Below are positions 31,095 to 61,638 of a DNA stretch of 64,000 nt, piece after piece. The DNA is from Halobacteriovorax sp. HLS. GTDB lineage: Bacteria > Bdellovibrionota > Bacteriovoracia > Bacteriovoracales > Bacteriovoracaceae. The stretch spans positions 124,001-188,000 of the forward strand of contig NZ_QOCL01000014.1 in assembly GCF_004006665.1 (NCBI RefSeq), written 5' to 3'. How positions within the stretch are numbered: the first letter of the stretch is position 1; every line of letters starts with the position of its first letter. A program made the translations under genes and the position numbers. The notes under the pieces are model-generated. The model did no database searches. It saw only the letters and a list, made by a program, of their open reading frames with translations, and was not told the DNA's origin.

Positions 31095-31126
31095 TGCCTT
31101 ATAACCGATGATATTTCTTATCAAAA

Positions 31127-31155
31127 TTGACTAAAACTTCTTGAAGCGAGATAAT
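31127..31155 (+). promoter_or_regulatory. Strong sigma-70-like promoter before legB
   Basis: TTGACT (31127-31132), exactly 17 bases, GATAAT (31150-31155). It lies 29 bases before the TTG start at 31184 and would allow legB onward to be transcribed separately from the upstream genes. Confidence 0.65.
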
Positions 31156-31183
31156 CCGTTTAAATACTTTATAGGGGTTAACA

Positions 31184-34352: not shown

Positions 34353-34354
34353 CT

Positions 34355-35272
34355 GTGAAGGTCTGTGTTTGGGGAGCCGGCTCAATTGGTACAAAGCATT
34401 TTAATATTCTTCAGGACAATGGTTGTGAAGTTTGTTTTCTCTCGAGAAGAAAATTAGACCAAAAACATTTTAACTCTTTAAATGATGTATTAAGTATATT
34501 TAATCCAGATCATATAATTGTTGCTACAGAAACAAATGATCATGAAAAATGTTTGCAATTAATAATTGAACAAAAATTTAAAGGAAATATTTTTATTGAA
34601 AAACCTATTTTTAATAAAATGTCACAGTTGAGTTTTGTTACAGATACCTTTAAAGAAAGAATATTCGTCCTTTATAATATTAGATTTAATAGAGGACTTG
34701 GTCTTCTAAAAGAAATTATAGAAACAGAAGGAATAACTGGATTAACGTGCTTTGTTGGTCAGTATCTTCCCGATTGGAGAAAAGGAACAGATTATAGGAA
34801 AAGCTACTCCGCTTGCTCAGAAAAAGGTGGAGGAGTTGTAAGAGACCTTAGTCATGAAATCGATTATACTGCATTTTTGGCTGGAAGAATAAAGTCCTTG
34901 TTTTCTATAAGTGGGAATTGTAGTGATCTGGAAATAGAGACAGAAGACTTTTCGAATATTGTTTTAGAGTCTGAAAATACGAGCAATATCACAATAGGGC
35001 TAAACTATTTAAATAAGTTTCCTCGTAGATTTATAATACTAAATACTAAATCAAATACGTATGAACTAGATCTCGTCAATAATCACTTATTGAAGAATGG
35101 TGAGAAAGTCGATCTTAAATTCGACATGGCCGAGTCATATGAAAGACAAGCTAAGGCCATACTTGCCGAGGATTATTCTCAGTTATGTACTTACGAAGAA
35201 GGAATTGAGACTCTTAAAGTAATTGAAGCTATAGAAGTATCATCTAATGATAAAAGGTTTATTAACTTATGA
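34355..35272 (+). CDS. Gfo/Idh/MocA-family oxidoreductase
   Basis: NAD(P)-dependent sugar dehydrogenase-type protein. The Rossmann segment is VCVWGAGSIGTKHF, the conserved EKP motif occurs as FIEKPIF, and GGGVVRDLSHEIDYT is the family substrate-site segment with a histidine. GTG at 34355 is chosen because AAGGA lies 9 bases upstream; a TTG at 34346 abuts that element and is unlikely. It has 305 residues and overlaps legF as ATGA. Similar genes occur with ptmE and legF in flagellin-glycosylation loci, where their exact step is unclear. Confidence 0.82.
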   Translation: MKVCVWGAGSIGTKHFNILQDNGCEVCFLSRRKLDQKHFNSLNDVLSIFNPDHIIVATETNDHEKCLQLIIEQKFKGNIFIEKPIFNKMSQLSFVTDTFKERIFVLYNIRFNRGLGLLKEIIETEGITGLTCFVGQYLPDWRKGTDYRKSYSACSEKGGGVVRDLSHEIDYTAFLAGRIKSLFSISGNCSDLEIETEDFSNIVLESENTSNITIGLNYLNKFPRRFIILNTKSNTYELDLVNNHLLKNGEKVDLKFDMAESYERQAKAILAEDYSQLCTYEEGIETLKVIEAIEVSSNDKRFINL

Positions 35273-35973
35273 AAGTTTTATGTAGTATTTGTGCAAGAGG
35301 TGGCTCTAAGGGCGTAAAGAATAAGAATGTTAGAGAATTAAACTCTATACCCTTAATTGCTCATAGTATTTTACAAGCAAAAGAGAGTAATCTCTTTGAT
35401 GTTATATCAGTCAGTAGTGATTGTGATCAAATCTTGAGTATTGCCAAAGAGTATGGGGCTGATTTTCTAATAAAGAGACCAGATGATTTGGCAACTGATA
35501 CATCTGCTAAGCTTCCTGTTATTCAACATTGTTTTAGCGAGAGCGAAAAAGAAAGTGGCATGAACTTTGACTTTGTCATTGATCTAGATGCTACATCACC
35601 TTTGAGAAAAGTTTCTGACATTAAAGGAGTTTTTGATATACTTCAATCGAGAAGTGAGGAGATTGATAATGTCATAACAGGTTGTCACGCAAGAAGATCT
35701 CCTTACTTTAATCTCGTTGAAGAAAATGAGAGTGGATTCTCACGTTTAGTAAAAAGCTTAGAAAAGGGGATTGTCAGACGTCAAGATTCTCCGAGGTGTT
35801 TTGATATGAATGCTTCGATCTATGGATGGTCTAGAAATGCACTTTTAAACTCAGATAAGGTGTTGATGCCAAAGACAGTACTTTTTGAAATGAGTGAAGA
35901 GACGGCTTACGATATTGATTCTGAATTAGACTTTAAAATAGTAGAACTATTAATGAGAGATAGAAATGAGTAA
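35269..35973 (+). CDS. legF: CMP-legionaminic acid synthetase (acylneuraminate cytidylyltransferase)
   Basis: Activates the nonulosonic acid with CTP to give the CMP-linked donor. The N-terminal CARGGSKGVKNKNVRELN is the CTP-binding signature; LDATSPLRKVSDI and the RRQDSPRCFDMNASIYGW segment are typical of NeuA/LegF. It has 234 residues, normal for the single-domain form. Four-base overlap with the preceding oxidoreductase and 8-base overlap with the following SDR show a tight operon. It completes the set from 28337 onward. Confidence 0.9.
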   Translation: MKVLCSICARGGSKGVKNKNVRELNSIPLIAHSILQAKESNLFDVISVSSDCDQILSIAKEYGADFLIKRPDDLATDTSAKLPVIQHCFSESEKESGMNFDFVIDLDATSPLRKVSDIKGVFDILQSRSEEIDNVITGCHARRSPYFNLVEENESGFSRLVKSLEKGIVRRQDSPRCFDMNASIYGWSRNALLNSDKVLMPKTVLFEMSEETAYDIDSELDFKIVELLMRDRNE

Positions 35974-36712
35974 AAAAAATATAATTCTTGTGGGAGCAGC
36001 GGGGTTGATCGGAAAAGCTATTTATAATGAGCTTGTTAAAGACGATATCAATCTAGTTGCGGTTGATATAAATGAGGATTCTTTAAAAGATATAGTTTCT
36101 CCTCATGGTGGAAAATATGTAGTTGCTAATATAACTTCGGAGGATTCTGTAATTGAACTTATTGCAAACCTTAAGGAGAATTATGGAGTTATTGATGCAG
36201 TAGTAAATACTGCATACCCTAGAAATAAGAACTTTGGAAAAGATCTATTTGATGTGAAGCTCGAAGATTTTAATGAGAACCATTCTTTACATCTTGGTGG
36301 CTACTTTAATCTTTCTCAAAAGTTTGCTTCACTCTTTATGGAGCAAGGCCTTGGCAGTATCGTAAACTTCTCATCTATTTACGGTGTTTGTGCTCCAAAA
36401 TTTGATATTTATAAAGAAACTAAAATGACTAATGGGCCAGAGTACGCTTCTATTAAATCATCCCTAGTATTTTTAACCAAATTTATCTCTCAAAGAATTA
36501 AAGGTTCTGGAGTTAGGATTAATGCTATAAGTCCTGGGGGGGTTCTGGATGGACAACCAGAATCTTTTGTTAATAATTATAAAAAATATTGTAATAGTAA
36601 GGGAATGTTAAATCCTGAAGACCTCGTTGGAGCTGTTCGCTTTCTTATTTCTGATGAGTCTAAGTTTGTCACAGGTCAGAATATTGTTGTAGACGACGGG
36701 TTTTCTATATGA
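35966..36712 (+). CDS. ptmA: PtmA-like SDR oxidoreductase
   Basis: Classical SDR (248 residues) resembling Campylobacter PtmA, found with legionaminic-acid genes. It has the cofactor motif GAAGLIGKAIY, NTAYPRNKNFGKDL in place of the usual NNAG, NFSSIYGV and a YASIK catalytic Tyr-Lys. The conserved C-terminus VTGQNIVVDDGFSI is intact. It overlaps legF by 8 bases and the next nucleotidyltransferase by 4. A paralogue lies at 54919 with the same SIYG and TGQNI segments. The reaction of PtmA is still poorly defined. Confidence 0.82.
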   Translation: MSKKNIILVGAAGLIGKAIYNELVKDDINLVAVDINEDSLKDIVSPHGGKYVVANITSEDSVIELIANLKENYGVIDAVVNTAYPRNKNFGKDLFDVKLEDFNENHSLHLGGYFNLSQKFASLFMEQGLGSIVNFSSIYGVCAPKFDIYKETKMTNGPEYASIKSSLVFLTKFISQRIKGSGVRINAISPGGVLDGQPESFVNNYKKYCNSKGMLNPEDLVGAVRFLISDESKFVTGQNIVVDDGFSI

Positions 36713-37413
36713 TTTCAGATGTAATGGTTTTAGTTTTAGCTGGAGGTAAGGGGACAAGATTATCTTCAGTTGTAAGTGATGTTCCTAAACCAATGGCCCC
36801 TATTGGAGATAAGCCCTTTCTATACTATGTCTTAAAATATCTTAAGAAGAATGATTTTAGAAATATATGTTTTTTAACTGGATATAAGGCTTCTGTTATT
36901 GAAAACTTTGCCACTGAGTATGACGATACTGAACTTAATTTAAGTCACTCTTTTGAGGATTCTCCACTTGGAACAGGAGGAGCTATAAAAAAGGCCATTG
37001 AGAAGCATAGCGACTTCTCTAGGTTTATTGTACTTAATGGCGATACATTCTTTGATGTTGATTTAAAATTATTTATGAATAGCTGTAAAACCAAATATGC
37101 TCTGGCCTTGAAGAAGATAGAAGATTGTTCAAGGTATGGAAGAGTTTCTCTAGATGAAGGTTTGATTTCAGAATTTATAGAAAAAGATTCGTCTCTTCAT
37201 GTCTCTGGATTAATTAATGGCGGTGTTTATTTTCTTGATAAGGATGTTATTAAATACATAGCTGAAGGCTTTGTTTCTTTAGAGAGTGAAGTATTTCCTG
37301 AGTTGATTAAGCTTAATGCCTTGTCAGGAGTAGAAGTCTCAGGAAACTTTCTCGATATAGGTATTCCTGAGGACTATTACTCTGCACAGACGTTAATTCC
37401 TAAATGGACTTAA
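36709..37413 (+). CDS. Sugar-1-phosphate nucleotidyltransferase, HddC-like
   Basis: Single-domain nucleotidyltransferase (234 residues) with VLAGGKGTRLSSVVSDVPKP, GTGGAIKKA, LNGDTFFDVD and NGGVYFLDKD. It is closest by eye to HddC, the D-glycero-alpha-D-manno-heptose-1-phosphate guanylyltransferase. An HddA-like kinase at 43878 could feed it, but no GmhA or GmhB is seen. Position at the end of the leg operon leaves a role in a related GDP-sugar step open. It overlaps the convergent oxidoreductase by 4 bases. Confidence 0.78.
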   Translation: MISDVMVLVLAGGKGTRLSSVVSDVPKPMAPIGDKPFLYYVLKYLKKNDFRNICFLTGYKASVIENFATEYDDTELNLSHSFEDSPLGTGGAIKKAIEKHSDFSRFIVLNGDTFFDVDLKLFMNSCKTKYALALKKIEDCSRYGRVSLDEGLISEFIEKDSSLHVSGLINGGVYFLDKDVIKYIAEGFVSLESEVFPELIKLNALSGVEVSGNFLDIGIPEDYYSAQTLIPKWT

Positions 37414-38357
37414 TTTTCGCCATTTAGGATTTGAAGGTAGATATTAGATTTTGAGTTTTGCTCTTCTATGCTAATTAAGTTACCTTTTTTATTTTCAATA
37501 AAATCTTTCGTTTGAAGAAAGAAGCCCGGCTTAAACTCTTGGTCTAAACTATCGTCTACTTCTATCTTATTTACGGCAACACTTCCAAGTTCTTGTACTT
37601 GGAGTTGCTCCATTGGTTTTAAGTAGTAGCGGTTGGTTGCAGTAATGAATTCTAGGGCCCACCTTCCAGGTCCCTTCCAATTGGCCTGATAAGTAAAAAG
37701 GGCATGTTTTTCACTAATTCCAGAGCCGACAAAATTAGATCCATTTGGATGCCAATCAAGTTCAGAAGTTTTTAAGCTATTCATCTTTAAAGGAGAACCA
37801 CCTAAATGGAATGCCAAGTCGATAACATGACTAGAGTTTTGAAAGAACCAATTTTCTTTAACCCCTGGATTTTTAGGAATGTCTTGAATGACATGGCTCC
37901 ACTCAGTGAATTCAAAGTGAAACGACTTTAAACCGCCATCATTTAAAATTCTTTTTTCTAGCTCAAGAACAGAAGAGAAATATCTTCTATTATAAGCTAA
38001 GTGAACTTTTGCATTCTTATTCTGAGCTAAGTCCTTTACTGCTTGGACTTTCTCTATAGTAGAGGCTCCTGGTTTTTCTACCAATATATCTTTTATTCCA
38101 AGTTCCAATAAAGCAACTGTCGCAATATCCAATTGATCTTCTGAAACAGCAACTATAGCTTTATTGCATACTAAGATAGCTTCTTTATTTTTATCAATTC
38201 CGCCAACGAGGGCATCTCGTCCAGTGGCCTGCTTAAATGAATTTGCCGAACTTTCCCCTCTACCAATGACGATATATTCCTGTTCTAGCTTAGTGAGTAT
38301 TTTACTATATTCAATTGCAATTGGACCAGCTCCGATAATAGCGATTCTATTAGTCAT
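37410..38357 (-). CDS. Gfo/Idh/MocA-like oxidoreductase
   Basis: NAD(P)-binding oxidoreductase of 315 residues. The N-terminal fold shows IAIIGAGPIAIEYSKIL, the EKP motif appears as ILVEKPGAST, and YNRRYF plus the HVIDLAFHLGG histidine segment define the family's second domain. It lacks close similarity to the paralogues at 34355 and 41162, so the three probably have different substrates. It overlaps the downstream-facing amidotransferase start by 8 bases, placing it as the last gene of the minus operon running from hisF to 37410. Confidence 0.8.
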   Translation of the reverse strand: MTNRIAIIGAGPIAIEYSKILTKLEQEYIVIGRGESSANSFKQATGRDALVGGIDKNKEAILVCNKAIVAVSEDQLDIATVALLELGIKDILVEKPGASTIEKVQAVKDLAQNKNAKVHLAYNRRYFSSVLELEKRILNDGGLKSFHFEFTEWSHVIQDIPKNPGVKENWFFQNSSHVIDLAFHLGGSPLKMNSLKTSELDWHPNGSNFVGSGISEKHALFTYQANWKGPGRWALEFITATNRYYLKPMEQLQVQELGSVAVNKIEVDDSLDQEFKPGFFLQTKDFIENKKGNLISIEEQNSKSNIYLQILNGEN

Positions 38358-39567
38358 TTAAACCACCATTCCACACATTATGCTTAAGTTTCCATTCTCC
38401 TGCGGAGTCTTTACCCCAAAGGTGAGGAGAGCGAAACTTGTCGCAAGTATCATGGAACTGTTGAGGTGTAATATCTAGGTACTCCATGATTTCATCAAAG
38501 TATCTATCAGGAAATTCTCCATCATATTTTTTGATTAGTGCCTGGGCTTCTTCTCTTGTTATATGATTATTACGAATTTCTTGTGAAGCATCATATGTTG
38601 CTCTACCGAGTCCAAATTTTATAAATGTAGTGTAGTAGTGAAGGTCATCAATCTTATCGTCAATACTATTGTACTTACTATAAGTACCTTGAGTTCTAAA
38701 TGGTCTAGCTTTAAAGCCAGTGTTTTCAACAGCGTAGTAATATACTTCTTGCGGAGTCCATTTCAGGTAATAACCAAGATAGTGAACATCAATTTTAGAT
38801 TTACCTAGTTCTGCTTCAGTTATTGGAAGAAAAGATTGTAAGTCAGATAATCTAACATTATGTTCTTCTTGAAGCTCTTTAATTGAAACTCCTCCAAGAT
38901 AGATTTCATCAAGGTGGCTGTAGCTAAAATATGATTTATCTCTCAACGATGAAGTGTTATCGGCGATAGGATTACCATACTCAGCTTCATTTTCGCCGTA
39001 GAAAATAAGGTCAATGTCATATTTGGCAGCTAACTTAGGAGCTAGGTTTTTTTGTCCTAGGATAAATGTTTGAAATGGGTGTAATATATTAAGGATAGAA
39101 AGCTTAGTTAGAAGCTTCATAACTTTACCATTTCTGTTAAAGCTTAAATTGTCGAAACCTCCAACATCAATCCAGTTTCTAAAGTTCTTAAGACCGTATT
39201 CCGTGTATAGTATTGGTGGCCAAGTAACTGTAAGCGGATTCATTCCATACTTATATTTTAGAATATGCGCTTGATAAGCACTATCCTTTCCCCCACTACC
39301 CGGAACGAGACAGTCATAGCTTCCATCATTTTTTCTATGTTTATCTAGTAGGGCAACAAGCTCTGCTTCTCTTTGTTCCCAATTGATTTTATCTTTGCTT
39401 TCATTAACTCTACAAGCATCGCATATACCTTCGTTATCGAAGCCCATAGTTCCTTTTTTACTGTCTAGAGTGTGTTTAAATTCTACAGATGAAGTAGGTC
39501 TTTGGTTGGACATTACACATTTTTTACAAAAAATTACTTCATCAGGAAGGCCGTATAAGTTTGCCAT
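38350..39567 (-). CDS. N-acetyl sugar amidotransferase (WbpG/PseA-type)
   Basis: PP-loop ATP-pyrophosphatase-fold enzyme that converts an N-acetyl group to acetamidino, using ammonia. The PP-loop SGGKDS is at 91-96; zinc-type cysteine pairs C14/C17 (FCKKCVMSNQRP) and C49/C52 (GICDAC) precede it. It has 405 residues, the TIGR03573-like length. The HisH- and HisF-like genes directly upstream would supply ammonia, as with WbpG in Pseudomonas O-antigen loci and PseA-type enzymes in Campylobacter. In this locus legionaminic acid is the likely target; a diacetamido sugar precursor is an alternative. Confidence 0.88.
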   Translation of the reverse strand: MANLYGLPDEVIFCKKCVMSNQRPTSSVEFKHTLDSKKGTMGFDNEGICDACRVNESKDKINWEQREAELVALLDKHRKNDGSYDCLVPGSGGKDSAYQAHILKYKYGMNPLTVTWPPILYTEYGLKNFRNWIDVGGFDNLSFNRNGKVMKLLTKLSILNILHPFQTFILGQKNLAPKLAAKYDIDLIFYGENEAEYGNPIADNTSSLRDKSYFSYSHLDEIYLGGVSIKELQEEHNVRLSDLQSFLPITEAELGKSKIDVHYLGYYLKWTPQEVYYYAVENTGFKARPFRTQGTYSKYNSIDDKIDDLHYYTTFIKFGLGRATYDASQEIRNNHITREEAQALIKKYDGEFPDRYFDEIMEYLDITPQQFHDTCDKFRSPHLWGKDSAGEWKLKHNVWNGGLND

Positions 39568-39581
39568 TTTATCTCTCTTTT

Positions 39582-40211
39582 TTAGTTTAAATCTTTCCAG
39601 TTTTGATATATTTGAAGTCCGCTTTTAGAACTTTTTTCTGGATGGTATTGAGTTGCAAATACATTGTCTTTTAAAATTGAAGAACAGTAATTTAGTTCTC
39701 CATGAGTAGTGTAGGATAGCTCATTTTCGGTTGAGCTTAAATCACAGTAGTACGAGTGTACGAAATAGAAGTCAGTCTTGTTCTTAATACCTTGTAATGG
39801 AGTATTATCCCAACTGATATCTTTTTCATTCACTTCATCCCAAGAAATCTTAGGTACAGGAAGATTCTTGTTATTGTCTGGAAGCTTTCTAACAATCCCA
39901 TCTATGATACCAAGACCTTTAGATTCACCAAATTCAGCACTACTCTTTAAAAGTAGTTGCATGCCTAAGCAAATTCCCATGAAAGGCTTACCTGTCTTGA
40001 TAAAAGATTTAATCTCTTCATCAAGGCCAGAGGTAACTAAATTCTGCATTCCTTGTGCAAAAGCACCAACTCCAGGAAGTATTAGTGCGTCTGCGGACTT
40101 TAGTTCTTTAGGAGTAGATACAAGAAATGGATTTAATCCTACCTCTTTGCAAGCTTGTTGAACGCTGAATAGGTTACCGATCGAATAGTCAATAATTGCT
40201 ACATTTTTCAA
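39582..40211 (-). CDS. hisH: HisH-type glutamine amidotransferase
   Basis: Class I glutaminase (209 residues) producing ammonia for its partner. Nucleophile C81 is in GICLGMQLLL and the H190/E192 pair is in QYHPEKS, so the catalytic triad is intact. It lies 4 bases from the HisF-like gene and 14 from the amidotransferase. No other histidine-pathway gene is near, so this is most likely the sugar-modification paralogue (HisH2) and not the one for histidine biosynthesis. Confidence 0.88.
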   Translation of the reverse strand: MKNVAIIDYSIGNLFSVQQACKEVGLNPFLVSTPKELKSADALILPGVGAFAQGMQNLVTSGLDEEIKSFIKTGKPFMGICLGMQLLLKSSAEFGESKGLGIIDGIVRKLPDNNKNLPVPKISWDEVNEKDISWDNTPLQGIKNKTDFYFVHSYYCDLSSTENELSYTTHGELNYCSSILKDNVFATQYHPEKSSKSGLQIYQNWKDLN

Positions 40212-40215
40212 ACTC

Positions 40216-41070
40216 TCAACCTCGTCTACACTGTATGTCTGCTTTGATTAAAGCATCTTTAAGTTCTAAAATTGAAAATGTATTAATCTTAGAAAATCTT
40301 TTACCACTATTTATAAAGTTTTTATTTCCTTCTGATGTGGAAACATTATTTATAAACTTTGCATTATTGATTGTGTCGTAATGAAATGCAGATGCAATTG
40401 CAACTGCACTCACGTTTGTTTCTTTGATCATTTGAATAGTATCTTCAAGGGATGACCCTCCTCCATGTGCTACAACTGGAATTGAGACAACGTCAGTAAC
40501 AGACTTAATAAGGTCAATATCAAAACCTTCTCCTGTTCCTTCTCTATCGACGGAAGTAATTACTATTTCTCCCGCACCTAGGGACTCAACTTCTTTGGCC
40601 CATGCAACAATATCTTTACCTGTTTCCTCTCTACCATTATCTATAAAAGCAAAGTAGGCACCGTTTTCTTGTTTAATAGCTTCAATTGCTACAACAATTG
40701 TTGAAGAACCAAATAATTGTGATGCTTGTCTTATAAATTGAGGATTTTTAATTGCAGCAGTATTAATACAGACTTTATCTGCACCTTGCTGAAGTACATT
40801 TCGTATATCTTCTATTGTTCTTAAACCACCACCAACAGTGATTGGAATAAAAGTTTTCTGAGAAGTTTTTGTTATAATTTCATCTAAACTATTTCTCTCA
40901 AAAAGACTGGCGACACAGTCCATGTAGAATATTTCATCTGCTTCATTATTGTAGTAATATTCGCAAAAACTCTGCGGGTCGCCCAGCACTCTTAATCCCT
41001 CGAGATGGATGCCTTTAACAAGATTAGGCCCTTTAATGTCTAAGCGCGAAATGATACGTATTTTTCTCAT
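40216..41070 (-). CDS. hisF: HisF-type cyclase-barrel paralogue
   Basis: TIM-barrel partner of HisH that channels ammonia. D11 (SRLDIKGP) and the TSVDREGTGEGFD segment are present, but the position of the second catalytic aspartate of canonical HisF (D130, normally in a VVAID strand) is E130 here (VVAIEAI). That substitution and the 284-residue length with a C-terminal extension argue for an ammonia-delivery role and against imidazole glycerol phosphate synthesis. A strong AAGG-TAATAT ribosome-binding site precedes the ATG. Confidence 0.86.
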   Translation of the reverse strand: MRKIRIISRLDIKGPNLVKGIHLEGLRVLGDPQSFCEYYYNNEADEIFYMDCVASLFERNSLDEIITKTSQKTFIPITVGGGLRTIEDIRNVLQQGADKVCINTAAIKNPQFIRQASQLFGSSTIVVAIEAIKQENGAYFAFIDNGREETGKDIVAWAKEVESLGAGEIVITSVDREGTGEGFDIDLIKSVTDVVSIPVVAHGGGSSLEDTIQMIKETNVSAVAIASAFHYDTINNAKFINNVSTSEGNKNFINSGKRFSKINTFSILELKDALIKADIQCRRG

Positions 41071-43877: not shown

Positions 43878-44876
43878 TTATTGAGGGTTATATAGTGTGA
43901 TGTGAGATCCGAGGTATTCAAATTTGAATGGCACCCAGACTTTAATATTTTTTGCCAAAGCTTCTTTGATTTGTTGATGTTTTTCTGGAGGTGCGATGAA
44001 CATCATGAAACCACCGCCTCCTGCGCCGAGTAGTCTTCCTCCGTACGCTCCATTCTTGATTGCGATCTCATATGCGTCATCAATATAAGAGTTAGAAATT
44101 ATTTTTGTAAGCCCTCTTTTTATTTTCCAGGTTGTATCAAATAGTTTCCCAAAATCTTTGAAGTCTCGTTCTTTTTGAAAGAGCCCTAAACCCTCTTTAG
44201 CAATAGAGTGGATTTCTTTCATTTGAGTGTTTATCGATCCATTTTTAATTTCATTTATTTGTTTTGATGCATTATCAGACGAGAATCTTGTTTGTCCTGA
44301 AAAAGCTAACATTATATGAGATTCAAAATTTCTTTTAAATTCGTTCCCTAAAATTAGTGGGAGTACTTTGTATTGATTGCCTGGTCCCATTTCTATAATG
44401 TTTAAACCACCATACGCTGTTAGTATTTGGTCTTGAATACCAACACTTTCGTTATTCATTACTTGTTCAACATGTATTGCTTGTTTCGCTAACTCCTCCT
44501 TACTAATCATTTTATGATTATATGCATGAAGTGCATTGAGCATTCCACATGTGAAACTAGAGGACGAGCCAATACCACTTCTAGCTGGTAAGTCTCCATC
44601 ATAGTGTATTTCTAATCCATCATTTATATCTGTTAGCTTGAGACAGTTTCTTACTGAGGGATGTTCAATTTCAGAGTTGCAGTTAACTTGTTCAGTTTTA
44701 GAGTAAACGATACGAGTCTTATGTTCAAAGAAAGGGGGTAACCTTCTTAAGGTAATGTAATTATATTGGTCGAAAGTACTGCCAATAATTAAGCCACCAT
44801 TCTCTTCAAACCAAGAGTTATAATCAGTCCCACCTCCAAAAAAAGATAGTCTGAATGGTGTCTTTGAAATAATCAT
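43878..44876 (-). CDS. hddA: GHMP kinase, HddA-like (heptose kinase)
   Basis: Sugar kinase of the GHMP superfamily, closest to D-glycero-alpha-D-manno-heptose-7-phosphate kinase. The N-terminal TPFRLSFFGGGTDY, the phosphate loop RSGIGSSSSFTCG (loop at residues 101-107) and the C-terminal GGRLLGAGGGGFMMF are all intact. It has 332 residues. With an SDR upstream and an HddC-like nucleotidyltransferase at 36709 it suggests a GDP-heptose-type donor, although GmhA and GmhB are not seen. L-fucokinase-like activity is an alternative. Confidence 0.83.
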   Translation of the reverse strand: MIISKTPFRLSFFGGGTDYNSWFEENGGLIIGSTFDQYNYITLRRLPPFFEHKTRIVYSKTEQVNCNSEIEHPSVRNCLKLTDINDGLEIHYDGDLPARSGIGSSSSFTCGMLNALHAYNHKMISKEELAKQAIHVEQVMNNESVGIQDQILTAYGGLNIIEMGPGNQYKVLPLILGNEFKRNFESHIMLAFSGQTRFSSDNASKQINEIKNGSINTQMKEIHSIAKEGLGLFQKERDFKDFGKLFDTTWKIKRGLTKIISNSYIDDAYEIAIKNGAYGGRLLGAGGGGFMMFIAPPEKHQQIKEALAKNIKVWVPFKFEYLGSHITLYNPQ

Positions 44877-44887
44877 AAATTTACCTT

Positions 44888-45820
44888 TTATATGTTTGCG
44901 TACTCAGTTCTTTTAATTATAGAGAAGGCTTTTTGAAGTTCTTTGATGCCGTCTTGTAGGGAATAGTCTGTTTTATAGCCTGTGGCTTCAATCTTCTCGT
45001 TACTAACAATATAATTACGCTGATCAGGGTCTTTGCCTATTTCAGATTCAGAGACCATAAAGTTTGGAACAAATTTTTTGATTTCATCGCACAACTCTTT
45101 CTTACTTAAGTTTGCAGTGCTTAAACCTACATTATAAGTATTCCCTTTCATCTGGTTATAGTTGTTGATCGTGTGAATAAATGCTTTTGCAGCATCTCTA
45201 ACATGTAGGTAATTTCTCTTAAAATGAGATTCAAACAAGATAATATATCCATCATTTATAGCTTTATAGGTAAAATCATTAACCAGAAGGTCAAGCCTCA
45301 TTCTAGGGCTAGACCCGAAAACGGTCGCAAATCTAAAGCATACAGCTTCACCTTTAGTAAGTAAGTATGATTCAGTCTCTACCTTTAGTTTTCCATAAAG
45401 AGAAATTGGTTTTAAGGGAGAGCTTTCATCACAGAAGATATCTGCCTCTCCAATACCGTAGCCGCTGTTTGTACATGGATAAATGAGCATTTGATTGTCA
45501 GATTTATTATCATACAAAAACTTGATGGCGTCCGTATTTACAGCTTTAGCTGCCATTGGGTCTTTATTGCAAAGTGGAGCTCCAACTAGGCAAGCAAGAG
45601 GAATTAATACATCATGACCAGGAATAAGAGACAGCATTAGCTCTTCGTTTCTCACATCTCCATTTATGATTGTTAAGTTATCTTTGTGGCATTGATCAAG
45701 CAAAGGGTTTTGCTTAAACATGAAATTATCTATGACTGTAACTTGGTGTCCCTCGTCTAATAGCATAGGTACTAAAGTTGAACCAATATAACCTGCACCA
45801 CCAGTAACTAAAACTTTCAT
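44888..45820 (-). CDS. NAD-dependent sugar epimerase/dehydratase (extended SDR)
   Basis: Extended SDR of 310 residues: GGAGYIGSTLV, LACLVGAPLCNKDP, a catalytic YGKLK and VFGSSPRMRLDLLVNDF. The NSGYG segment replaces the usual SSxxVYG. It is first in the minus run 45820-41162, directly before an HddA-like kinase, so it may modify a heptose or the precursor of the deoxysugar made by the divergent genes. Its promoter region is shared back-to-back with the ColD-like gene at 46008. Exact reaction unknown. Confidence 0.8.
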   Translation of the reverse strand: MKVLVTGGAGYIGSTLVPMLLDEGHQVTVIDNFMFKQNPLLDQCHKDNLTIINGDVRNEELMLSLIPGHDVLIPLACLVGAPLCNKDPMAAKAVNTDAIKFLYDNKSDNQMLIYPCTNSGYGIGEADIFCDESSPLKPISLYGKLKVETESYLLTKGEAVCFRFATVFGSSPRMRLDLLVNDFTYKAINDGYIILFESHFKRNYLHVRDAAKAFIHTINNYNQMKGNTYNVGLSTANLSKKELCDEIKKFVPNFMVSESEIGKDPDQRNYIVSNEKIEATGYKTDYSLQDGIKELQKAFSIIKRTEYANI

Positions 45821-46007: not shown

Positions 46008-47177
46008 ATGATTAATATTCCATTAATGCAAGAAAATATTACTAGAGACGATTTAGATATTCTTGTTGAGTATCTAAAGCAAGACAATCCAAGACTAACA
46101 GCAGGAAGTGAAGTTCTAGCTTTTGAGAAAGAATGGTCAGAATGGTTAGGGGTTAAGTATAGCTTGTTTTTGAACTCTGGTAGTTCGGCAAATATTCTAA
46201 CAATGGCCGCAATAAAGCACCTCTACGGTGATGGTGAAATTATAGTACCTTCACTTACTTGGGTTTCTGATATTTCTTCAGTTATGTTTGCTGGTTTAAC
46301 TCCAATCTTTGTTGATATTAATCCTAAGAACCTTGCAATGTGTGAGAAACAGGTATTGTCAAAAATTACTGATAAAACTAAAGCTGTTTTTATTACTCAT
46401 ATTCTAGGGTTTAATGGGCTTTCTCAAGACTTACTTGATGAATTAAAAAAGAGAGAGATTCTTTTAATAGAAGATGTTTGCGAGTCTCATGGAGCGACTT
46501 TCAACAATAAAAAGCTTGGTAGTTATGGATTTGCTTCTAATTTTTCATTTTATTTCGCACATCACATGAGTACGATTGAAGGCGGGGTAGTTTGTACAAA
46601 TGATGAGAAGTTCTATCAAACTTTGAGAATGTTGCGCTCGCATGGAATGGTTCGAGAGCTAAGCTCTCAGGAAATGAAAGATAGCTATATTAATAAGTAT
46701 CCAGACCTTAATCCTGAATTTATTTTCTCTTACCCTTCTTATAATATGAGAAGTACTGAGCTTAATGCAATTATCGGAAGAAGCCAGCTTAAGAAGCTTG
46801 ATGCAAATAACGATTTAAGAAGAACAAATTGTGATTTATTTTATAGTCTTCTTGATTCTGAAAAGTATAGAACAGATTTCGATCTTGATGGTGCTGTGAA
46901 CTATGCTTTTGTACTTATTTTGAAGGACAAAGATGATGATTTAATGAAAAAAGTTTCGAACTCGTTGCGAGATAATATGGTTGAGTTTAGAAGAGGAACT
47001 TCAGGGGGAGGGAATCAGCTGAGACAACCGTATTTGAGAGAGATAATGCCTCCGTCTTATTATGAGCAATTTCCTGAAACAGATCATATACATTTCTATG
47101 GAATGTATATTGGTAATTATCCAGGGCTTGAAGTTGAAAAAATTAAGAGCCTTTGTGAACTTTTAAACTCTCTATAG
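46008..47177 (+). CDS. PLP-dependent sugar 3-dehydratase, ColD-like (His replaces PLP Lys)
   Basis: DegT-family fold with the cofactor-linking lysine replaced. In SFYFAHHMSTIEGG the residue six before the Glu of EGG, normally Lys in aminotransferases, is H185, the hallmark of ColD and of the E1 enzyme of ascarylose-type pathways, which remove a C3 hydroxyl instead of transaminating. E155-D-V-C-E-S-H (155-161) is the ring-binding segment. At 389 residues it matches ColD (about 388) and lacks the Cys-rich extension of iron-sulfur E1 enzymes. GAGGAAAAG precedes the ATG. The next two genes are a split transketolase. Substrate is probably a GDP- or CDP-4-keto-6-deoxy sugar. Confidence 0.85.
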   Translation: MINIPLMQENITRDDLDILVEYLKQDNPRLTAGSEVLAFEKEWSEWLGVKYSLFLNSGSSANILTMAAIKHLYGDGEIIVPSLTWVSDISSVMFAGLTPIFVDINPKNLAMCEKQVLSKITDKTKAVFITHILGFNGLSQDLLDELKKREILLIEDVCESHGATFNNKKLGSYGFASNFSFYFAHHMSTIEGGVVCTNDEKFYQTLRMLRSHGMVRELSSQEMKDSYINKYPDLNPEFIFSYPSYNMRSTELNAIIGRSQLKKLDANNDLRRTNCDLFYSLLDSEKYRTDFDLDGAVNYAFVLILKDKDDDLMKKVSNSLRDNMVEFRRGTSGGGNQLRQPYLREIMPPSYYEQFPETDHIHFYGMYIGNYPGLEVEKIKSLCELLNSL

Positions 47178-47185
47178 GAAATCAA

Positions 47186-48001
47186 ATGGATTACGAATAT
47201 TTAAAAGAAAAGTCTAAATTTGTCAGAGTGGAAACTCTTAAAATACATCAAAGAGTTGCCGAAACAAGAGTTGCTTCGTCCTTGTCTCCAATTGAGATTG
47301 TAGTGTCTCTCTACTACGGCGGTATAATTAAATTTGACCCTAAGGACCGCTTTTCTGACTCTAGAGATAGGTTTATAATCTCAAAAGGTCATGGTTCTAT
47401 ATGTATGTACCCACTTCTTGCTGATCTCGGATTTTTTGATGTTTCTGAATTAGAAAATGCTTGTAAGAAAGGAAGCTTCTTGGGAGGAATTCCAGATCCA
47501 GTTATCCCTGGCTATGAAACAGTTAATGGATCATTAGGTCATGGCCCTGGAGTTGCTTCTGGTATGGCGGTCGCACTGAAGTCCCTTAATAAAAAAGAGA
47601 ATGTTGTTGTTCTTACTGGTGATGGAGAATTAAATGAAGGTTCGGTCTGGGAGGCCGTCATGTTCGCTTCACACCATAAGTTAGATAATCTAACTATCAT
47701 TGTGGACAATAATAAAACATCAATGCTTAATAGATCAGAACAGATAGTTAACCTCTCACCACTTTCTAGTAGATTCGAAGCGTTCGGATGGGATACTTTT
47801 GAGGTTCAAGATGGTCACTCTGTACAAGAGGTACACTCCGTGCTGGACAAGCGTATCCCAGAGAGATCCGGAAAGCCAAAGGTTATTATTGTTAACACTG
47901 TAAAAGGAAAGGGTGTACCTTTTTTAGAGAAGCATCATTTATGCCACATTCTTTCTGTTGGAAGTGAGTCAATAGATGAAATTATAAAGGATTTAGAATG
48001 A
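47186..48001 (+). CDS. Transketolase-like protein, N-terminal (ThDP pyrophosphate) subunit
   Basis: Half-size transketolase (271 residues) carrying the thiamine-diphosphate pyrophosphate-binding domain: SKGHGSICMYPLL, NGSLGHGPGVASG and the metal/ThDP motif GDGELNEGSVWE through IIVDNNK. It begins 8 bases after the ColD-like stop and overlaps the C-terminal subunit gene by 4 bases (ATGA). Split transketolases are known, but their location directly behind a deoxysugar dehydratase is notable: the pair may add a two-carbon ketol unit to the keto sugar. That role is inference only. Confidence 0.85.
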   Translation: MDYEYLKEKSKFVRVETLKIHQRVAETRVASSLSPIEIVVSLYYGGIIKFDPKDRFSDSRDRFIISKGHGSICMYPLLADLGFFDVSELENACKKGSFLGGIPDPVIPGYETVNGSLGHGPGVASGMAVALKSLNKKENVVVLTGDGELNEGSVWEAVMFASHHKLDNLTIIVDNNKTSMLNRSEQIVNLSPLSSRFEAFGWDTFEVQDGHSVQEVHSVLDKRIPERSGKPKVIIVNTVKGKGVPFLEKHHLCHILSVGSESIDEIIKDLE

Positions 48002-48918
48002 ATAAAAGAGCAATGAGAGATGTATTTTTGGAAGAGTTGTATCAGAGAATGCTGATCGATAAAAATATATTCTTTGTTTGTGCAGACTTTGGTTCTCCTG
48101 TTCTTGATAAGATTCAAGCAGATATTCCAGGGCGATTCATAAATGTTGGAATAGCAGAGCAAAATTTAATAAATGTTTCAGTTGGAATGGCTCTAGAAGG
48201 ATATACTGTCTATGCTTATGCAATTGCTCCGTTTATTACAATGAGGTGTTATGAGCAGATAAGGGTTGGTGTATCAGTTCTTTCTCAAGTTCGCCCAATG
48301 AATATAAATATTATTGGTGTTGGTGCAGGTGTTAGTTATACGGTCAGTGGGCCAACTCATCATTGCCTTGAGGACCTTTCTATAATGAATACTTTGCCGA
48401 ATATTGATATTTTCTCACCAAGTGATTGCTCGTTAGTGAAAAGTTACTTTGATTATACTGTAAGCTTTAAACATCCTAAGTATATAAGATTTGATGCTCA
48501 ACCAATTTCTGATATAGAAGCAGAAGGGTTTTCTTCTGATGGATATAGAGTTGTTAATGAGGGGGATGGTGAGAGTGTGTTAGTGTCAACTGGTTATATG
48601 ACTCATACTGCTCTTGAAATCATAAAAAAGAAAAATGTTACTTTAGTGGATATATATTTAGTAAACAGTTTTGATAAGAATAGTCTTTTCCAGAAGCTAT
48701 CTTCATTTAATAAGATTCTTGTTCTTGAAGAAGGTATTGCTAACAAAGGGGGACTTGTGAGTGAAATACATGAGTTATTTCAAGACAGTGAGAAAAACCC
48801 TAAGGTAAAAGGAATTGGCTTTTCTAAAGAATATCACTTCGATGTTGGAAGCCGCGCTGAAGTCCATTCATGTGCCAAAATAGGGTTTGATAACATTATT
48901 GAAATATTATCAAATTAA
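47998..48918 (+). CDS. Transketolase-like protein, C-terminal (pyrimidine-binding) subunit
   Basis: Partner subunit of 306 residues with the pyrimidine-binding and C-terminal domains. The catalytic glutamate is in GIAEQNLINVSVGMA; FVCADFGSP, FSPSDCSLVKSYFDY and KILVLEEGIANKGGLVSEI are the expected following segments. ATGA overlap with the N-terminal subunit gene implies a heteromeric enzyme. It ends with a 4-base convergent overlap with the glycosyltransferase at 48915. It resembles both transketolase and 1-deoxyxylulose synthase-like proteins; donor substrate unknown. Confidence 0.85.
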   Translation: MNKRAMRDVFLEELYQRMLIDKNIFFVCADFGSPVLDKIQADIPGRFINVGIAEQNLINVSVGMALEGYTVYAYAIAPFITMRCYEQIRVGVSVLSQVRPMNINIIGVGAGVSYTVSGPTHHCLEDLSIMNTLPNIDIFSPSDCSLVKSYFDYTVSFKHPKYIRFDAQPISDIEAEGFSSDGYRVVNEGDGESVLVSTGYMTHTALEIIKKKNVTLVDIYLVNSFDKNSLFQKLSSFNKILVLEEGIANKGGLVSEIHELFQDSEKNPKVKGIGFSKEYHFDVGSRAEVHSCAKIGFDNIIEILSN

Positions 48919-49895: not shown

Positions 49896-51365
49896 CTATC
49901 TTTCGTAATTTCTTGCGAGTTTTTTACTAGTCATGAAGTTAATATGTTCAAGTGCCTTGTCTCCAAATGTTTCTTTGACCATCGATAAATACTGCTCACC
50001 TTTAAAGAACTCCTCCCACTTTTCATCTCTAAACTTTAATACTTCCATTGCTCCAATATGCTTGGTGGGGAGTGGAAGCTGGTCTTTAGCGTGTTGAGAG
50101 TAGTTAGACCATGTAGTAGGTAAAGCTTGATTATTCTCTAGAGCTTCTGTGTATAATTTAGATCCTGGATACGCCATAGCACTATACAGGTTCATGAATT
50201 CAGTGTTTAGGTCTACAGCCATTTGAAATGTTTCTTCCATGGTTTTTATATCGTCATCTGGAAGGCCGACTATAAAATTAGAAAGTACTCTGATTCCTGC
50301 GTCTCTTATTGATTGGACGATTTCTTTAATATCATTAAACCTGAGTCTTTTTGAAGCACCATCTCTAACGAGGTCATTTGCTGACTCAATTCCTAGGCAG
50401 AACCAATTAAAGCCAGCTTTTTTCATCCTTGCTAAATGCTTCGTTTTCACTGTATCAATTCTGGAGTAGCACCAGATGTTTAGGTCTAGATCTTTTTCAA
50501 TCAACAGATCTGTAATCTTCATGTAATGGCTTTCTTTAAGCACAAACATTTCATCGATAAACTTAAAGTTTTTGACACCGTACTTCTTTACAAGAAGTTC
50601 GATCTCTTCAACTACAAGCTCTGGGCTTCTGTACCTTATTCCTGGTTTCCCAAATGGTGCATTGATGCAACAAAAAGTACAACTGTAAGGGCAACCAAGG
50701 CTTGTGTAAATTGCTGCGTAAGGAGATCTGTTCTCAATATCGTCAAAGCAGTGCCAGTTGTGAGCACGATATTTGTCCATTGGGAGTAGGTCCCACGCAG
50801 CTATTGGTAGGGCTTCGTCTAGATCTTTTATAACAGGATTTTTAGGATTACAGCGAATGACATCATTCTTGTAGTACCAAAGGCCAGGCACGTCTTCAAT
50901 TTTATTTTTATTATCTATATATTTCATAAGTTCAAGAAGGCTTTCTTGTTCTTCACCTTCAATCACATAATCTACATTTTCTTCTTTTAAGGTTCTCTTT
51001 GGTAATGCCGAAGGATGTAGTCCTCCTATGGTTACAGGGTAGTTTGTATGTTCTTTTATTTTAGAACAGATTTCTCCTGCTATATTCATTGTTTGTGTCG
51101 AGGCTGATGGTTGACCCCCATAAACAATTACCGCACAAAGTTTTGGAGAATATTCCTTTATCCTAGTTAGTGTTTCTTCAGGAGTTAAGTTCTCTGCATT
51201 TGCGTCAATAATCGCGACAGAGTAATTATTATTTCTTAAAAAACTAGCAAAGCTCGCAGTTAGAAATGGGGGCTCAATAGCGCAAAGTTCATCGCCTAGG
51301 TTTTGATATGTTACTTTTCTGTTTCCTGGGTTGATAAATACAATGTCACGTTGATTTTCACTCAT
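49896..51365 (-). CDS. B12-binding-type radical SAM protein
   Basis: A 489-residue iron-sulfur enzyme. Residues about 1-150 form a cobalamin-binding-like Rossmann domain (with AVIVYGGQPSAS and TIGGLHPSALP), followed by the radical SAM core with cluster cysteines C225, C229 and C232 in LGCPYSCTFCC. NFIVGLPDDDIKTMEE and a C-terminal tail complete the Elp3-like barrel. Relatives often methylate unactivated carbons or rearrange substrates. Placement between a glycosyltransferase and a GDP-fucose synthase-like gene suggests a sugar or lipid-linked glycan substrate, for example C-methylation; this is inferred. Confidence 0.83.
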   Translation of the reverse strand: MSENQRDIVFINPGNRKVTYQNLGDELCAIEPPFLTASFASFLRNNNYSVAIIDANAENLTPEETLTRIKEYSPKLCAVIVYGGQPSASTQTMNIAGEICSKIKEHTNYPVTIGGLHPSALPKRTLKEENVDYVIEGEEQESLLELMKYIDNKNKIEDVPGLWYYKNDVIRCNPKNPVIKDLDEALPIAAWDLLPMDKYRAHNWHCFDDIENRSPYAAIYTSLGCPYSCTFCCINAPFGKPGIRYRSPELVVEEIELLVKKYGVKNFKFIDEMFVLKESHYMKITDLLIEKDLDLNIWCYSRIDTVKTKHLARMKKAGFNWFCLGIESANDLVRDGASKRLRFNDIKEIVQSIRDAGIRVLSNFIVGLPDDDIKTMEETFQMAVDLNTEFMNLYSAMAYPGSKLYTEALENNQALPTTWSNYSQHAKDQLPLPTKHIGAMEVLKFRDEKWEEFFKGEQYLSMVKETFGDKALEHINFMTSKKLARNYER

Positions 51366-51491: not shown

Positions 51492-52412
51492 ATGAAGAAA
51501 ATTTTGGTGACAGGTGGTTCTGGAATGGTTGGTCGTAACCTTTTGTCACATAAGGAAAGTGAAAAATTTGATATTATTGCTCCGTCCCATGGGGTGCTAG
51601 ATTTAACTATTAAGAGGGATGTTGATGAATACCTTGCAGATGAAATGCCTGATTTTATTATTCATTGTGCAGGTCTCGTTGGTGGAATTCAGGCAAATCT
51701 TAAGTACCCCTTAGAGTTCTTGATGGAAAATCTTGATATGGGGTGTAACTTGTTGATGTCTGCTAGAAAGGTAGGTATTAAAAATGTTCTCGCTCTTGGT
51801 AGTAATTGTATGTATCCAAAAAATATTGAAGAAGGCCTTACTGAGGAAATGATATTAAAAGGGGAGCTTGAGGAGTCCAATGAAGGTTATGCCTTGGCAA
51901 AAATAACAATATCAAAGCTTTGTAAAATCATATCCAATGAGAACAAAGATTACAATTATAAGATGATTGTACCTTGTAGTCTCTATGGTAAATGGGACAA
52001 ATTTTCTCCTGAGAGTTCTCATCTAATACCTGCAATTATAAAGAAGTTAAACGATGCAAGAGTTAATAATGAAGTGAATGTGGAAATTTGGGGAGACGGT
52101 CTAGCTCGAAGAGAGATCATGTATGCTGAAGATCTTGCCGATTTTATTTATTTTTCTTTGGATAGATTTAATGAGTTGCCGGAAATTATGAATGTTGGCC
52201 TAGGTAAAGATTACTCAATCAATGAGCTATATTCTGCTGTCGCAAAAGTTGTAGGTTATAAGGGAGGCTTTTTTCATAATTTAGATCGACCAGTTGGAAT
52301 GAGGAAGAAGTTACTGAACATTAAACAGCTTGAGAGTTTTGGATGGCAAAGTGGAACTTCTTTAGAACAAGGCCTTAAACTAACTAATGATTTTTATTTG
52401 AGCAATATTTAA
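51492..52412 (+). CDS. fcl: GDP-L-fucose synthase-like epimerase/reductase (Fcl/WcaG)
   Basis: Extended SDR that in the family epimerises C3 and C5 and reduces C4 of GDP-4-keto-6-deoxymannose. N-terminal GGSGMVGRNLL, CAGLVGGIQANLKYPLEFLMEN, GSNCMYPKNIEEGLTEE and the YALAK catalytic pair are distinctive for Fcl. It has 306 residues, as usual. No GDP-mannose 4,6-dehydratase was found in the window; as in Campylobacter heptose pathways, the substrate could be a GDP-4-keto-heptose. It ends in a 29-base convergent overlap with the gene at 52384. Confidence 0.84.
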   Translation: MKKILVTGGSGMVGRNLLSHKESEKFDIIAPSHGVLDLTIKRDVDEYLADEMPDFIIHCAGLVGGIQANLKYPLEFLMENLDMGCNLLMSARKVGIKNVLALGSNCMYPKNIEEGLTEEMILKGELEESNEGYALAKITISKLCKIISNENKDYNYKMIVPCSLYGKWDKFSPESSHLIPAIIKKLNDARVNNEVNVEIWGDGLARREIMYAEDLADFIYFSLDRFNELPEIMNVGLGKDYSINELYSAVAKVVGYKGGFFHNLDRPVGMRKKLLNIKQLESFGWQSGTSLEQGLKLTNDFYLSNI

Positions 52413-59244: not shown

Positions 59245-61638
59245 CTATACCTTTTCCCAAGTAATAGGAAGATCACTTTCAATATTAGTTTTTGCAGTTC
59301 TGCCAATAACAATATCTAAATATTTTGGAAGAATCGCTCCTCCCGGTCCTTTGATTGTAAGCATATCTTGGGTAATTAGTTGACCCTCTTTAATGTCAAC
59401 ACGACTGTAAATACCCTTTCTTTGTTGGTTAAGAGCAATGTATTCATTTGGTTGAATTGTCTTTACACCATCGCCTAGAATTATAGGAATAGATTTGGCC
59501 ATTTCAACTAATGCAGCCATTTCTGCAGGTTCGGATGATAAAATGTGATCGGGACCTTCCATCGTTCTATCAAGAGTGTAATGCCTTTCAATAATATTTG
59601 CACCGAGTACAAGAGCAGTGTGAGAAACGAATAGTCCAAATGTGTGATCCGAGAGTCCAGTGGGAACATTAAATGTCGACTTCAATGTTTGAATTGCTTT
59701 TAAGTTCATTTCCTCTGGAGCAGCAGGGTATGTTGAATTACAGTGAAGTAGCATTAAATTTGAATTCCCCTCTTTGAGGACAGCATGAACAGCATCTTCT
59801 ATCTGACCTAGTGTGGACATTCCGGTAGAGATAATAATTGGCTTTCCAGTTTTCGCAACATGCCTTATTAAAGGGAGATTAACCAAATCCATAGAAGCTA
59901 TCTTGTATACACTAACTCCAAACTTTTCCAGGAAGTCTACACTCTCTAGGTCAAATGGCGTGGAGAAAACTTCGAGCCCCTTTTCTTTTGCATAGTTAAA
60001 TATTTCTACCTGATCTTCAAAGCTCATAGCTAGTCTTGAAAATACCTGGTCTAAGCTTTCTTCAAGTCCAATTACTTTTTCAGCGTACTTAGCAGCTTTA
60101 ACTTTTTTGGAGACTCTGCTGTTTGGTAGGTAAGTCTGAAATTTAATGGCATCACAGCCCGTGTGAACCGCTTTATCGATCAGCTTCTTAGCGATATCTT
60201 TACTTGCATTATGGTTTAATCCTGCTTCTGCAATTATATATGCAGGGTAGTCACTGCCAACTTTTCTTCCATTGATATCGATAACTTGATTTGGTTTGCA
60301 TGTTTGAATTTGTTTTGCAGTTTGAATTCCTTTAAACTTCTTTCCACAAAGAGAGTCCACTAAGTCCCAAGCTTTATGGAATAAAATTTGAATATCTGAG
60401 TAGTAGAACTCGCCACCAGTTCCTAGGCTATGAAGTTGGTTGTATTTTGAAATAACTGCACGAGATTTTGTAAGCTCTTCCTGATGTCCAACATATTGAA
60501 CAGGGTAGACAAAATCTTCTTTGTTAAAGGTCATTCCTGTTACTTGGTCTGCCTTTGCTAGTCCAACAAGTTCGACTTGATCAGCAATCTCACTCATCAT
60601 TTGATCGGTGTCTAGCATGTCAAACTTATCACCTTTGGAGTAGGTTGTTTCAATCGCTAAGTATGTTTTACCTTGAGGGCATACAAATCTAGACATCTTC
60701 TTAGGTTCAGAAATTCTATTAAAGTGAACTTTCTTGCTGCCGTAATATAGCCAGTGGAGCCCTTCTGGCAAAATAGATTCCTTGTCATAAGAAAGGTAGG
60801 TCGTGCAGATCCCTCTAAACTTTAGGTCACTATTGTGGCCAAAGAATCTGGCCAATAAGGTAATAGGAAGACTAGAGATAATTATATCATCGGCTGAAAC
60901 AGTATGTTCTGAACCATCTTTAAATTGAATTGAATTAATAACATTATCTGTTCTTGAGAAACCAGTTATTGTTGATTCTAGATGTATCCTACCGCCAAGC
61001 TTAATTATATTGTCTTTAATAACATTCAAAATCGAGCCTGTACCATACTTCCCGACAGCATTCCATTCCTCATGATAAAACGGGGTTATGGACTTTCTGA
61101 ACTGGATCCTTTTAGGGGCCCATAATGCTGACATTTCTTCGGGAGGAATTCCCCATAGTTTTTCTGGGTACTCTTCAAAGAACATTTTTCTTAGTGTTGG
61201 GCCTACTTGAGCATCTATGAAATCCTTATATGTATTAGCATTTCTTTTTTTTTCTTCAGAGGCCAGACCAATTTCATTCAGAATTTTTTTCTTAAGCTCT
61301 TGGGGGTATTTGGAAATACTTTCCCAAGAAATTGGATAGTCCCACATAGTGTCAAAGTTATCCCCTTGGACATTCTTACACCAAAAGTCATTTTGGATGA
61401 ATAAGTCACCGAATTCTGTTTCCCAGTATTTTTGAAGGTCCTTATCTGGGGTATGGAAAATATGTGGCCCCGTATCGAGTATAAATTCTCCCCAGTTCCA
61501 AGACCTACACATACCTCCAACGAGTGGAAGCTTCTCATAAATATCTACTTCATATCCTTCTTTAGCGAGTCGTTCTGCTGCGATTAGGCCAAGGGGGCCA
61601 GCTCCAAGAATAACTGCTTTTTTAGATGGTTTTGACAC
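59245..61638 (-). CDS. Fusion of FAD-dependent oxidoreductase and NeuB/SpsE-type synthase
   Basis: One 797-residue frame with two complete enzymes. Residues about 1-430 form an amine-oxidase/protoporphyrinogen-oxidase-like flavoprotein with the dinucleotide motif GAGPLGLIAAERLAKEG (12-28) and GGMCRSW. Residues about 460-725 are a NeuB barrel: YIIAEAGLNHNASK, IKFQTYLP, STGMSTLG, LHCNSTYP, GLSDHTFG and HYTLDRTMEGPDH; residues about 735-797 are a SAF-like tail. No stop or likely internal start lies at the junction, near 60270-60350. The start is GTG at 61638. Usual lengths of both families are kept, so it is a real fusion. The flavin step is unknown. Confidence 0.88.
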   Translation of the reverse strand: MSKPSKKAVILGAGPLGLIAAERLAKEGYEVDIYEKLPLVGGMCRSWNWGEFILDTGPHIFHTPDKDLQKYWETEFGDLFIQNDFWCKNVQGDNFDTMWDYPISWESISKYPQELKKKILNEIGLASEEKKRNANTYKDFIDAQVGPTLRKMFFEEYPEKLWGIPPEEMSALWAPKRIQFRKSITPFYHEEWNAVGKYGTGSILNVIKDNIIKLGGRIHLESTITGFSRTDNVINSIQFKDGSEHTVSADDIIISSLPITLLARFFGHNSDLKFRGICTTYLSYDKESILPEGLHWLYYGSKKVHFNRISEPKKMSRFVCPQGKTYLAIETTYSKGDKFDMLDTDQMMSEIADQVELVGLAKADQVTGMTFNKEDFVYPVQYVGHQEELTKSRAVISKYNQLHSLGTGGEFYYSDIQILFHKAWDLVDSLCGKKFKGIQTAKQIQTCKPNQVIDINGRKVGSDYPAYIIAEAGLNHNASKDIAKKLIDKAVHTGCDAIKFQTYLPNSRVSKKVKAAKYAEKVIGLEESLDQVFSRLAMSFEDQVEIFNYAKEKGLEVFSTPFDLESVDFLEKFGVSVYKIASMDLVNLPLIRHVAKTGKPIIISTGMSTLGQIEDAVHAVLKEGNSNLMLLHCNSTYPAAPEEMNLKAIQTLKSTFNVPTGLSDHTFGLFVSHTALVLGANIIERHYTLDRTMEGPDHILSSEPAEMAALVEMAKSIPIILGDGVKTIQPNEYIALNQQRKGIYSRVDIKEGQLITQDMLTIKGPGGAILPKYLDIVIGRTAKTNIESDLPITWEKV

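Follow-up and report, generated by a model that had tools for sequence, protein, structure and literature searches.

Yersiniose A of Yersinia pseudotuberculosis is produced by E1/E3 and YerE: a lysine-less PLP enzyme deoxygenates an NDP-4-keto sugar at C3, and a ThDP enzyme then introduces a branch at C4. According to a review, ketone acceptors are known for just three ThDP superfamilies, i.e., YerE-like decarboxylases (lipopolysaccharides), E1-type enzymes with pyruvate (antibiotics), and split transketolases (PMC12247030). For the latter, the activity was proposed in streptomycetes only and never shown in vitro; for the miharamycin and amipurimycin enzymes, transfer of a hydroxyacetyl group onto a keto sugar is proposed, and streptomycetes are the source of all 13 sequences listed (PMC12247030). 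In Campylobacter jejuni, Cj1427 produces GDP-4-keto-heptose, which is converted to GDP-3-deoxy-4-keto-heptose in vitro in the presence of the PLP-dependent HS:5 C3-dehydratase; the ketone is reduced by C4-reductases, and the paper describes no ThDP branching enzyme (PMC10680097).

The cluster analyzed here is located in a 64,000-nucleotide stretch of the Halobacteriovorax sp. HLS genome (the window). It shares with yersiniose A the succession of a PLP and a ThDP enzyme and the location of the genes in a lipopolysaccharide cluster, but the yersiniose enzymes act on a CDP-hexose and employ a ThDP enzyme of the decarboxylase superfamily, whereas a GDP-heptose (predicted) and an enzyme of the split transketolase type are found here; besides, the dehydratase is of the ColD type and scores below the E1/RfbH family cut-off. 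The GDP-heptose pathways of C. jejuni resemble the cluster in their Cj1427-type C4-dehydrogenase, HddA, HddC, and PLP C3-dehydratase. In contrast to the streptomycete split transketolases, those described here occur in surface-polysaccharide clusters of many phyla and are accompanied by a putative C3-dehydratase. The genes (Table 1) probably encode the middle part of a pathway whose product, a GDP-activated 3-deoxy-heptose branched at C4, would be used for a surface polysaccharide; the reactions, the order of the steps, and the donor are deduced from homology, active-site residues, and gene linkage. A literature search found no description of the module, whose novelty would lie in the yersiniose logic applied to a heptose, in the remodeled split transketolase, and in the wide distribution across phyla.

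Table 1. Genes of the putative branched-heptose cluster (positions in the window)
Feature	Position	Strand	Basis
HddC-like heptose 1-phosphate guanylyltransferase	36709..37413	+	HddC is the best-scoring NCBIfam model (188 bits; cut-off 300 bits)
HddA-like heptose 7-phosphate kinase (GHMP)	43878..44876	-	best NCBIfam model HddA, score below its cut-off
Cj1427-like SDR	44888..45820	-	aligns with PDB ID: 6vo6 over 308 aa, 58% identity
ColD-type PLP protein, His185 at the lysine position (H185 protein)	46008..47177	+	389 aa; ORF, Pfam, solved relatives, homolog alignment
TkN, ThDP-binding (N) subunit of the split transketolase-like enzyme	47186..48001	+	271 aa; GDG...NN motif; Transketolase_N (Pfam, E 2.4e-34)
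TkC, pyrimidine-binding (C) subunit of the split transketolase-like enzyme	47998..48918	+	306 aa; Transket_pyr and Transketolase_C (Pfam)
B12-binding radical SAM enzyme	49896..51365	-	Pfam B12-binding and Radical_SAM
GDP-L-fucose-synthase-like reductase	51492..52412	+	NCBIfam GDPFucSynFcl, 282.6 bits, below the 500-bit cut-off

The PLP protein and the split transketolase-like pair

The H185 protein belongs to the DegT/DnrJ/EryC1/StrS family (Pfam, E 2.9e-62), and its best solved relative is ColD from the colitose pathway of E. coli O55 (PDB ID: 2gms, E 1.8e-50). His185 aligns with the catalytic His188 of ColD; two ColD entries that are otherwise near-identical, 3b8x and 2r0t, have Asn and Lys, respectively, at this position. 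Histidine is present there in 81 of 81 homologs, and the lysine-type DegT proteins of the same window carry Lys. The homologs in the loci of two relatives (L034 and L041) share 60% and 59% identity with the window protein. With 181.7 bits, the protein remains below the E1/RfbH family cut-off of 423; the conserved cysteine set for the iron-sulfur cluster of E1/RfbH is absent, Cys158 being the sole cysteine conserved across all 81 homologs. While ColD acts on GDP-4-keto-6-deoxymannose, the enzymes linked to the H185 protein suggest a heptose, and a function as GDP-4-keto-heptose C3-dehydratase is predicted.

The TkN gene starts 8 bases downstream of the H185 gene, and the TkN and TkC genes, which overlap by 4 bases, are translationally coupled. 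ORFs, Pfam matches, and alignments confirm the initial annotation, which had noted His in place of the usual lysine in a ColD-like protein and, directly behind it, a coupled split transketolase pair. Each subunit has its best solved relative in one of the two chains of the Carboxydothermus hydrogenoformans split transketolase (PDB IDs: 6yak and 6yaj). Both subunits match transketolase domains and not TPP_enzyme_N/M/C (Pfam), which rules out membership in the YerE-type decarboxylase superfamily; nonetheless, the pair may act like YerE. Its gene context also corresponds to that of the miharamycin-type enzymes, i.e., a split transketolase within a cluster whose gene content indicates the synthesis of a keto sugar.

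The pair was aligned to the full-length transketolase of the same genome, with residues given in E. coli numbering. The ThDP machinery is kept: GDG...NN is found in TkN, and the activating/catalytic Glu (equivalent of Glu411) in TkC. The equivalent of His473 is retained in TkC, and that of His261 (H254) is nearly invariant. His26, His100, His461, Asp469, and Arg520 of E. coli transketolase contact the substrate or its sugar-phosphate part. All five are present in the full-length enzyme of the genome; in the split pair, Arg28 and Ile take the places of His26 and His100 (TkN), and Gly, Ser, and Ala those of His461, Asp469, and Arg520 (TkC). The Carboxydothermus enzyme, in contrast, keeps the Asp469 and His461 equivalents. 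Loss of His461 and Asp469 is common to most of the polysaccharide-cluster split transketolases sampled, and three split pairs among relatives (L046, L050, and L052) retain both residues. The Arg/Ile combination, on the other hand, is confined among the sampled sequences to pairs linked to the H185 protein. Together with Ser for Asp469, these two replacements (Arg for His26 and Ile for His100) form a residue signature by which such enzymes can be found.

The possibility that the pair is a cluster-borne transketolase just supplying a sugar-phosphate precursor has to be considered, as it is a transketolase by family and sedoheptulose 7-phosphate, for instance, is the start of heptose pathways (PMC10680097). 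Such a role is very improbable, given that all five contact residues are replaced, that the genome encodes a canonical full-length transketolase, and that E1- and decarboxylase-type enzymes, for which no formation of sedoheptulose 7-phosphate is known, occur in the same slot of related clusters. The full-length enzyme is encoded on another contig of this 3.84-Mb genome (16 contigs, 99.98% complete), so the pair is not the sole transketolase of the organism, which excludes the case that would have refuted the initial annotation. This enzyme (C9:412787-413542) has an odd N-terminal stretch, with ACHWGG instead of the GHPGG type, and keeps all canonical catalytic residues.

Conservation and exchange of the ThDP enzyme

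When 85,000 species genomes were scanned for relatives of the H185 protein, 80 loci encoding His-type proteins of 48-66% identity were retrieved in 12 phyla; no match was found among PLSDB plasmids at E 1e-60. Linkage was counted in the 55 loci with 5 kb of sequence on both sides, using detectors that were built from the case loci themselves and run on six-frame translations, and 20 lysine-type DegT loci from related genomes of one phylum served as controls. The six-frame search recovered genes masked by antisense ORFs in L078, L086, L089, and L092. A ThDP gene is found within 5 kb in 49 of the 55 loci and in none of the 20 controls (Fisher p 3e-13, the loci being phylogenetically non-independent); no ThDP gene was recognized within this distance in the other six. 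Clustering at 70% identity yields 19 clusters, 13 of which are wholly ThDP-positive. Within the same 5 kb, HddA is present in 49/55 loci (controls 0/20), the Cj1427-like SDR in 44/55 (0/20), and the B12-radical SAM gene in 41/55 (1/20), and most homologous loci contain an HddC-like gene. Since ThDP linkage alone separates the loci from the controls so clearly, the grouping of the genes is not due to chance. Both L034 and L041 carry the SDR, HddA, H185 protein, transketolase pair, B12-radical SAM enzyme, and HddC. The three-gene set is hence not unique to the window, and its conservation elsewhere, on which the initial annotation had made its proposal depend, is seen in these relatives and in the species scan.

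In about half of the ThDP-linked loci, the ThDP slot is filled by a split transketolase; in the remaining ones, the same operon position is taken by E1-type enzymes, either as a small pair or as a full pair or fusion, or by a decarboxylase-type enzyme (representatives of each type were confirmed by Pfam). At least 13 changes of the ThDP type map onto the maximum-likelihood tree of the H185 proteins. The presence of the other types rules out a transketolase-specific module. Replacement among exactly those three superfamilies for which ketone acceptors are known or proposed would be hard to explain unless the slot serves carboligation onto a 4-keto sugar, which points to carboligation, and not transketolase chemistry as such, as the conserved step. 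From the occurrence of three ThDP superfamilies in one pathway slot, a whole family of branched heptoses that have yet to be described is predicted. Candidate ketone-accepting transketolases are now found in surface-polysaccharide clusters across many phyla, SAR11-like marine bacteria among them.

The dehydratase and the ThDP enzyme might also be mere neighbors, each serving a different sugar of one polysaccharide. Transketolase pairs without the dehydratase and dehydratase loci without a ThDP gene both occur, and the window cluster seems to make a legionaminic-like acid as well; however, the tight adjacency in 49/55 loci of nine phyla, together with the Arg/Ile transketolase subclade, which adjoins the dehydratase in all sampled cases of sufficient sequence length, makes this unlikely. 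Pairs of the same broad family in loci lacking the dehydratase (L035-L037 and L053) do count against the proposed branched 3-deoxy-heptose pathway, and they indicate that branching need not require 3-deoxygenation. As the transketolase, the Cj1427-like SDR, and the radical SAM enzyme occur without the H185 protein in L053, 3-hydroxy heptoses are probably branched too.

In many loci, a very small split E1-type ThDP enzyme (approximately 203 and 178 aa) without Transketolase_C is encoded directly upstream of the H185 gene (e.g., L099:8832-9983 and L061:8821-9969) and would represent a minimal ThDP carboligase. The module is also present in Pelagibacteraceae (SAR11-like) genomes (L102, L107, L110-L113, L116, and L121-L133), some of whose clusters hold two or three different ThDP enzymes.

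Predicted acceptor, donor, and later steps

The module exceeds the three core genes, additionally comprising HddA, HddC, the putative C4-dehydrogenase, the B12-radical SAM enzyme, and often the GDP-fucose-synthase-like reductase. The SDR is a sequence ortholog of Cj1427 via PDB ID: 6vo6, an entry that, together with 6vo8, we take to be the 2-oxoglutarate-dependent GDP-heptose C4-dehydrogenase of C. jejuni; the same activity, providing the 4-keto acceptor, is predicted for the window protein. Its similarity to 6vo6 and the presence of HddA- and HddC-like enzymes make a heptose the probable acceptor. A GmhA-like gene is located on the same contig, away from the cluster. Formed from GDP-heptose by a Cj1427-like enzyme, the 4-keto acceptor would keep its 6-hydroxyl group and would not be a 3,6-dideoxyhexose. 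GDP-4-keto-6-deoxymannose is disfavored and a heptose preferred, because neither L034 nor L041 has a recognized 4,6-dehydratase in its transketolase module, and because the SDR is Cj1427-like.

In the proposed pathway, GDP-heptose would be oxidized at C4 by the SDR, and the C3 hydroxyl would be removed by the His-type ColD homolog (with PLP and glutamate, without a lysine Schiff base) to give GDP-3-deoxy-4-keto-heptose. TkN/TkC could then transfer a two-carbon acyl or ketol carbanion onto the C4 ketone, creating a tertiary alcohol; YerE, acting on CDP-3,6-dideoxy-4-keto-glucose, is the precedent for such an addition. The product obtained in vitro with Cj1427 and the HS:5 dehydratase is exactly the proposed acceptor. 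As this compound is already accessible by enzymatic synthesis, the question of a ketone-accepting transketolase is directly testable.

E1-type and decarboxylase-type ThDP enzymes are expected to use 2-oxo acids. Their presence in the same slot and the loss of the sugar-phosphate contacts widen the choice of donor: hydroxypyruvate, pyruvate, or another small compound is no less likely than xylulose 5-phosphate. The initial annotation is partly supported. The core of its reading, C3 deoxygenation followed by ThDP branching, is right and has strong comparative support in the ThDP linkage, but its acceptor and donor are unproven or probably wrong: the yersiniose-like acceptor persists as a 3-deoxy-4-keto sugar and gives way to a heptose with a 6-hydroxyl group, and of the two-carbon ketol donation the C2 addition stays proposed, with an acyl unit as an alternative to the ketol.

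The branched product would probably be modified by the B12-radical SAM enzyme and the GDP-fucose-synthase-like reductase. The latter, a homolog of which scores above 150 bits in 8 of 23 full transketolase-type loci, is a candidate for the reduction of the branch ketone or of C4. The model of the radical SAM enzyme (pLDDT 92) has AprD4, TsrM, MgmA, OxsB, and CysS as its nearest folds. AprD4 is a sugar diol dehydratase, whereas TsrM, MgmA, and CysS are methyltransferases. Probably the enzyme carries out a later tailoring step, and the folds do not discriminate between methylation, dehydration, and ring closure.

Ring closure is speculative, yet compatible with the module. The branched 3-deoxy-4-C-acyl heptose might be an intermediate in which the radical SAM enzyme joins C7 to the branch carbonyl, resulting in a carbocyclic sugar of the caryose type. 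Caryose is a 4,8-cyclo-3,9-dideoxy-nonose, a 3-deoxy nonose in which C4 and C8 are bonded (PMC9671505, PMC9026286), and its carbon count equals that of a 3-deoxy-heptose bearing a two-carbon (acetyl) unit at C4 and closed by a bond between C7 and C8. The frequency of the radical SAM gene in the loci is consistent with such a role, as is the best NCBIfam model, the ring-forming B12-radical SAM enzyme BchE, whose score is far below the cut-off; the nearest folds, on the contrary, belong to dehydration and methylation, and none of the clusters was identified as belonging to an organism known to produce carbocyclic sugars. This intermediate role seems quite improbable. The same low probability applies to a route to higher sugars with a carbocycle that would be widespread among bacteria, in which a C4-dehydrogenase, a C3-dehydratase, and interchangeable ThDP carboligases would precede closure of the branch onto the sugar tail by the B12-radical SAM enzyme. 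If this were true, the transketolase version would lead to a hydroxylated caryose-type analog, none of which has been seen yet.

Related clusters and other sugars of the window

A second split transketolase pair without an H185 protein is encoded on the contig of the window (L053, C14:24500-44000). This locus, probably a second branched-sugar cluster, carries its own B12-radical SAM gene, an HddC-like gene, and the only other Cj1427-like SDR of the genome (49% identical). Another cassette recurs in relatives (L036:5272-9320, L047:8608-12673, L048, L049, and L051). In these cassettes, an SDR approximately 33% identical to Cj1427 and an apparent fusion of a HAD phosphatase and an APH-type kinase accompany a split transketolase pair, which has Leu at the place of Asp469 and Lys at that of Arg520.

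By inspection, the window contains a legionaminic-acid-like set (28337-41070) with homologs of NeuB, NeuC, LegB, LegC, PtmE, PtmF, and LegF, followed by a HisF/HisH/WbpG-type amidotransferase set, and the polysaccharide seems to hold further rare sugars. Farther along, an ORF of 797 aa (59245-61638) apparently combines an FAD-dependent amine-oxidase-like domain with a NeuB-like sialic acid synthase domain.
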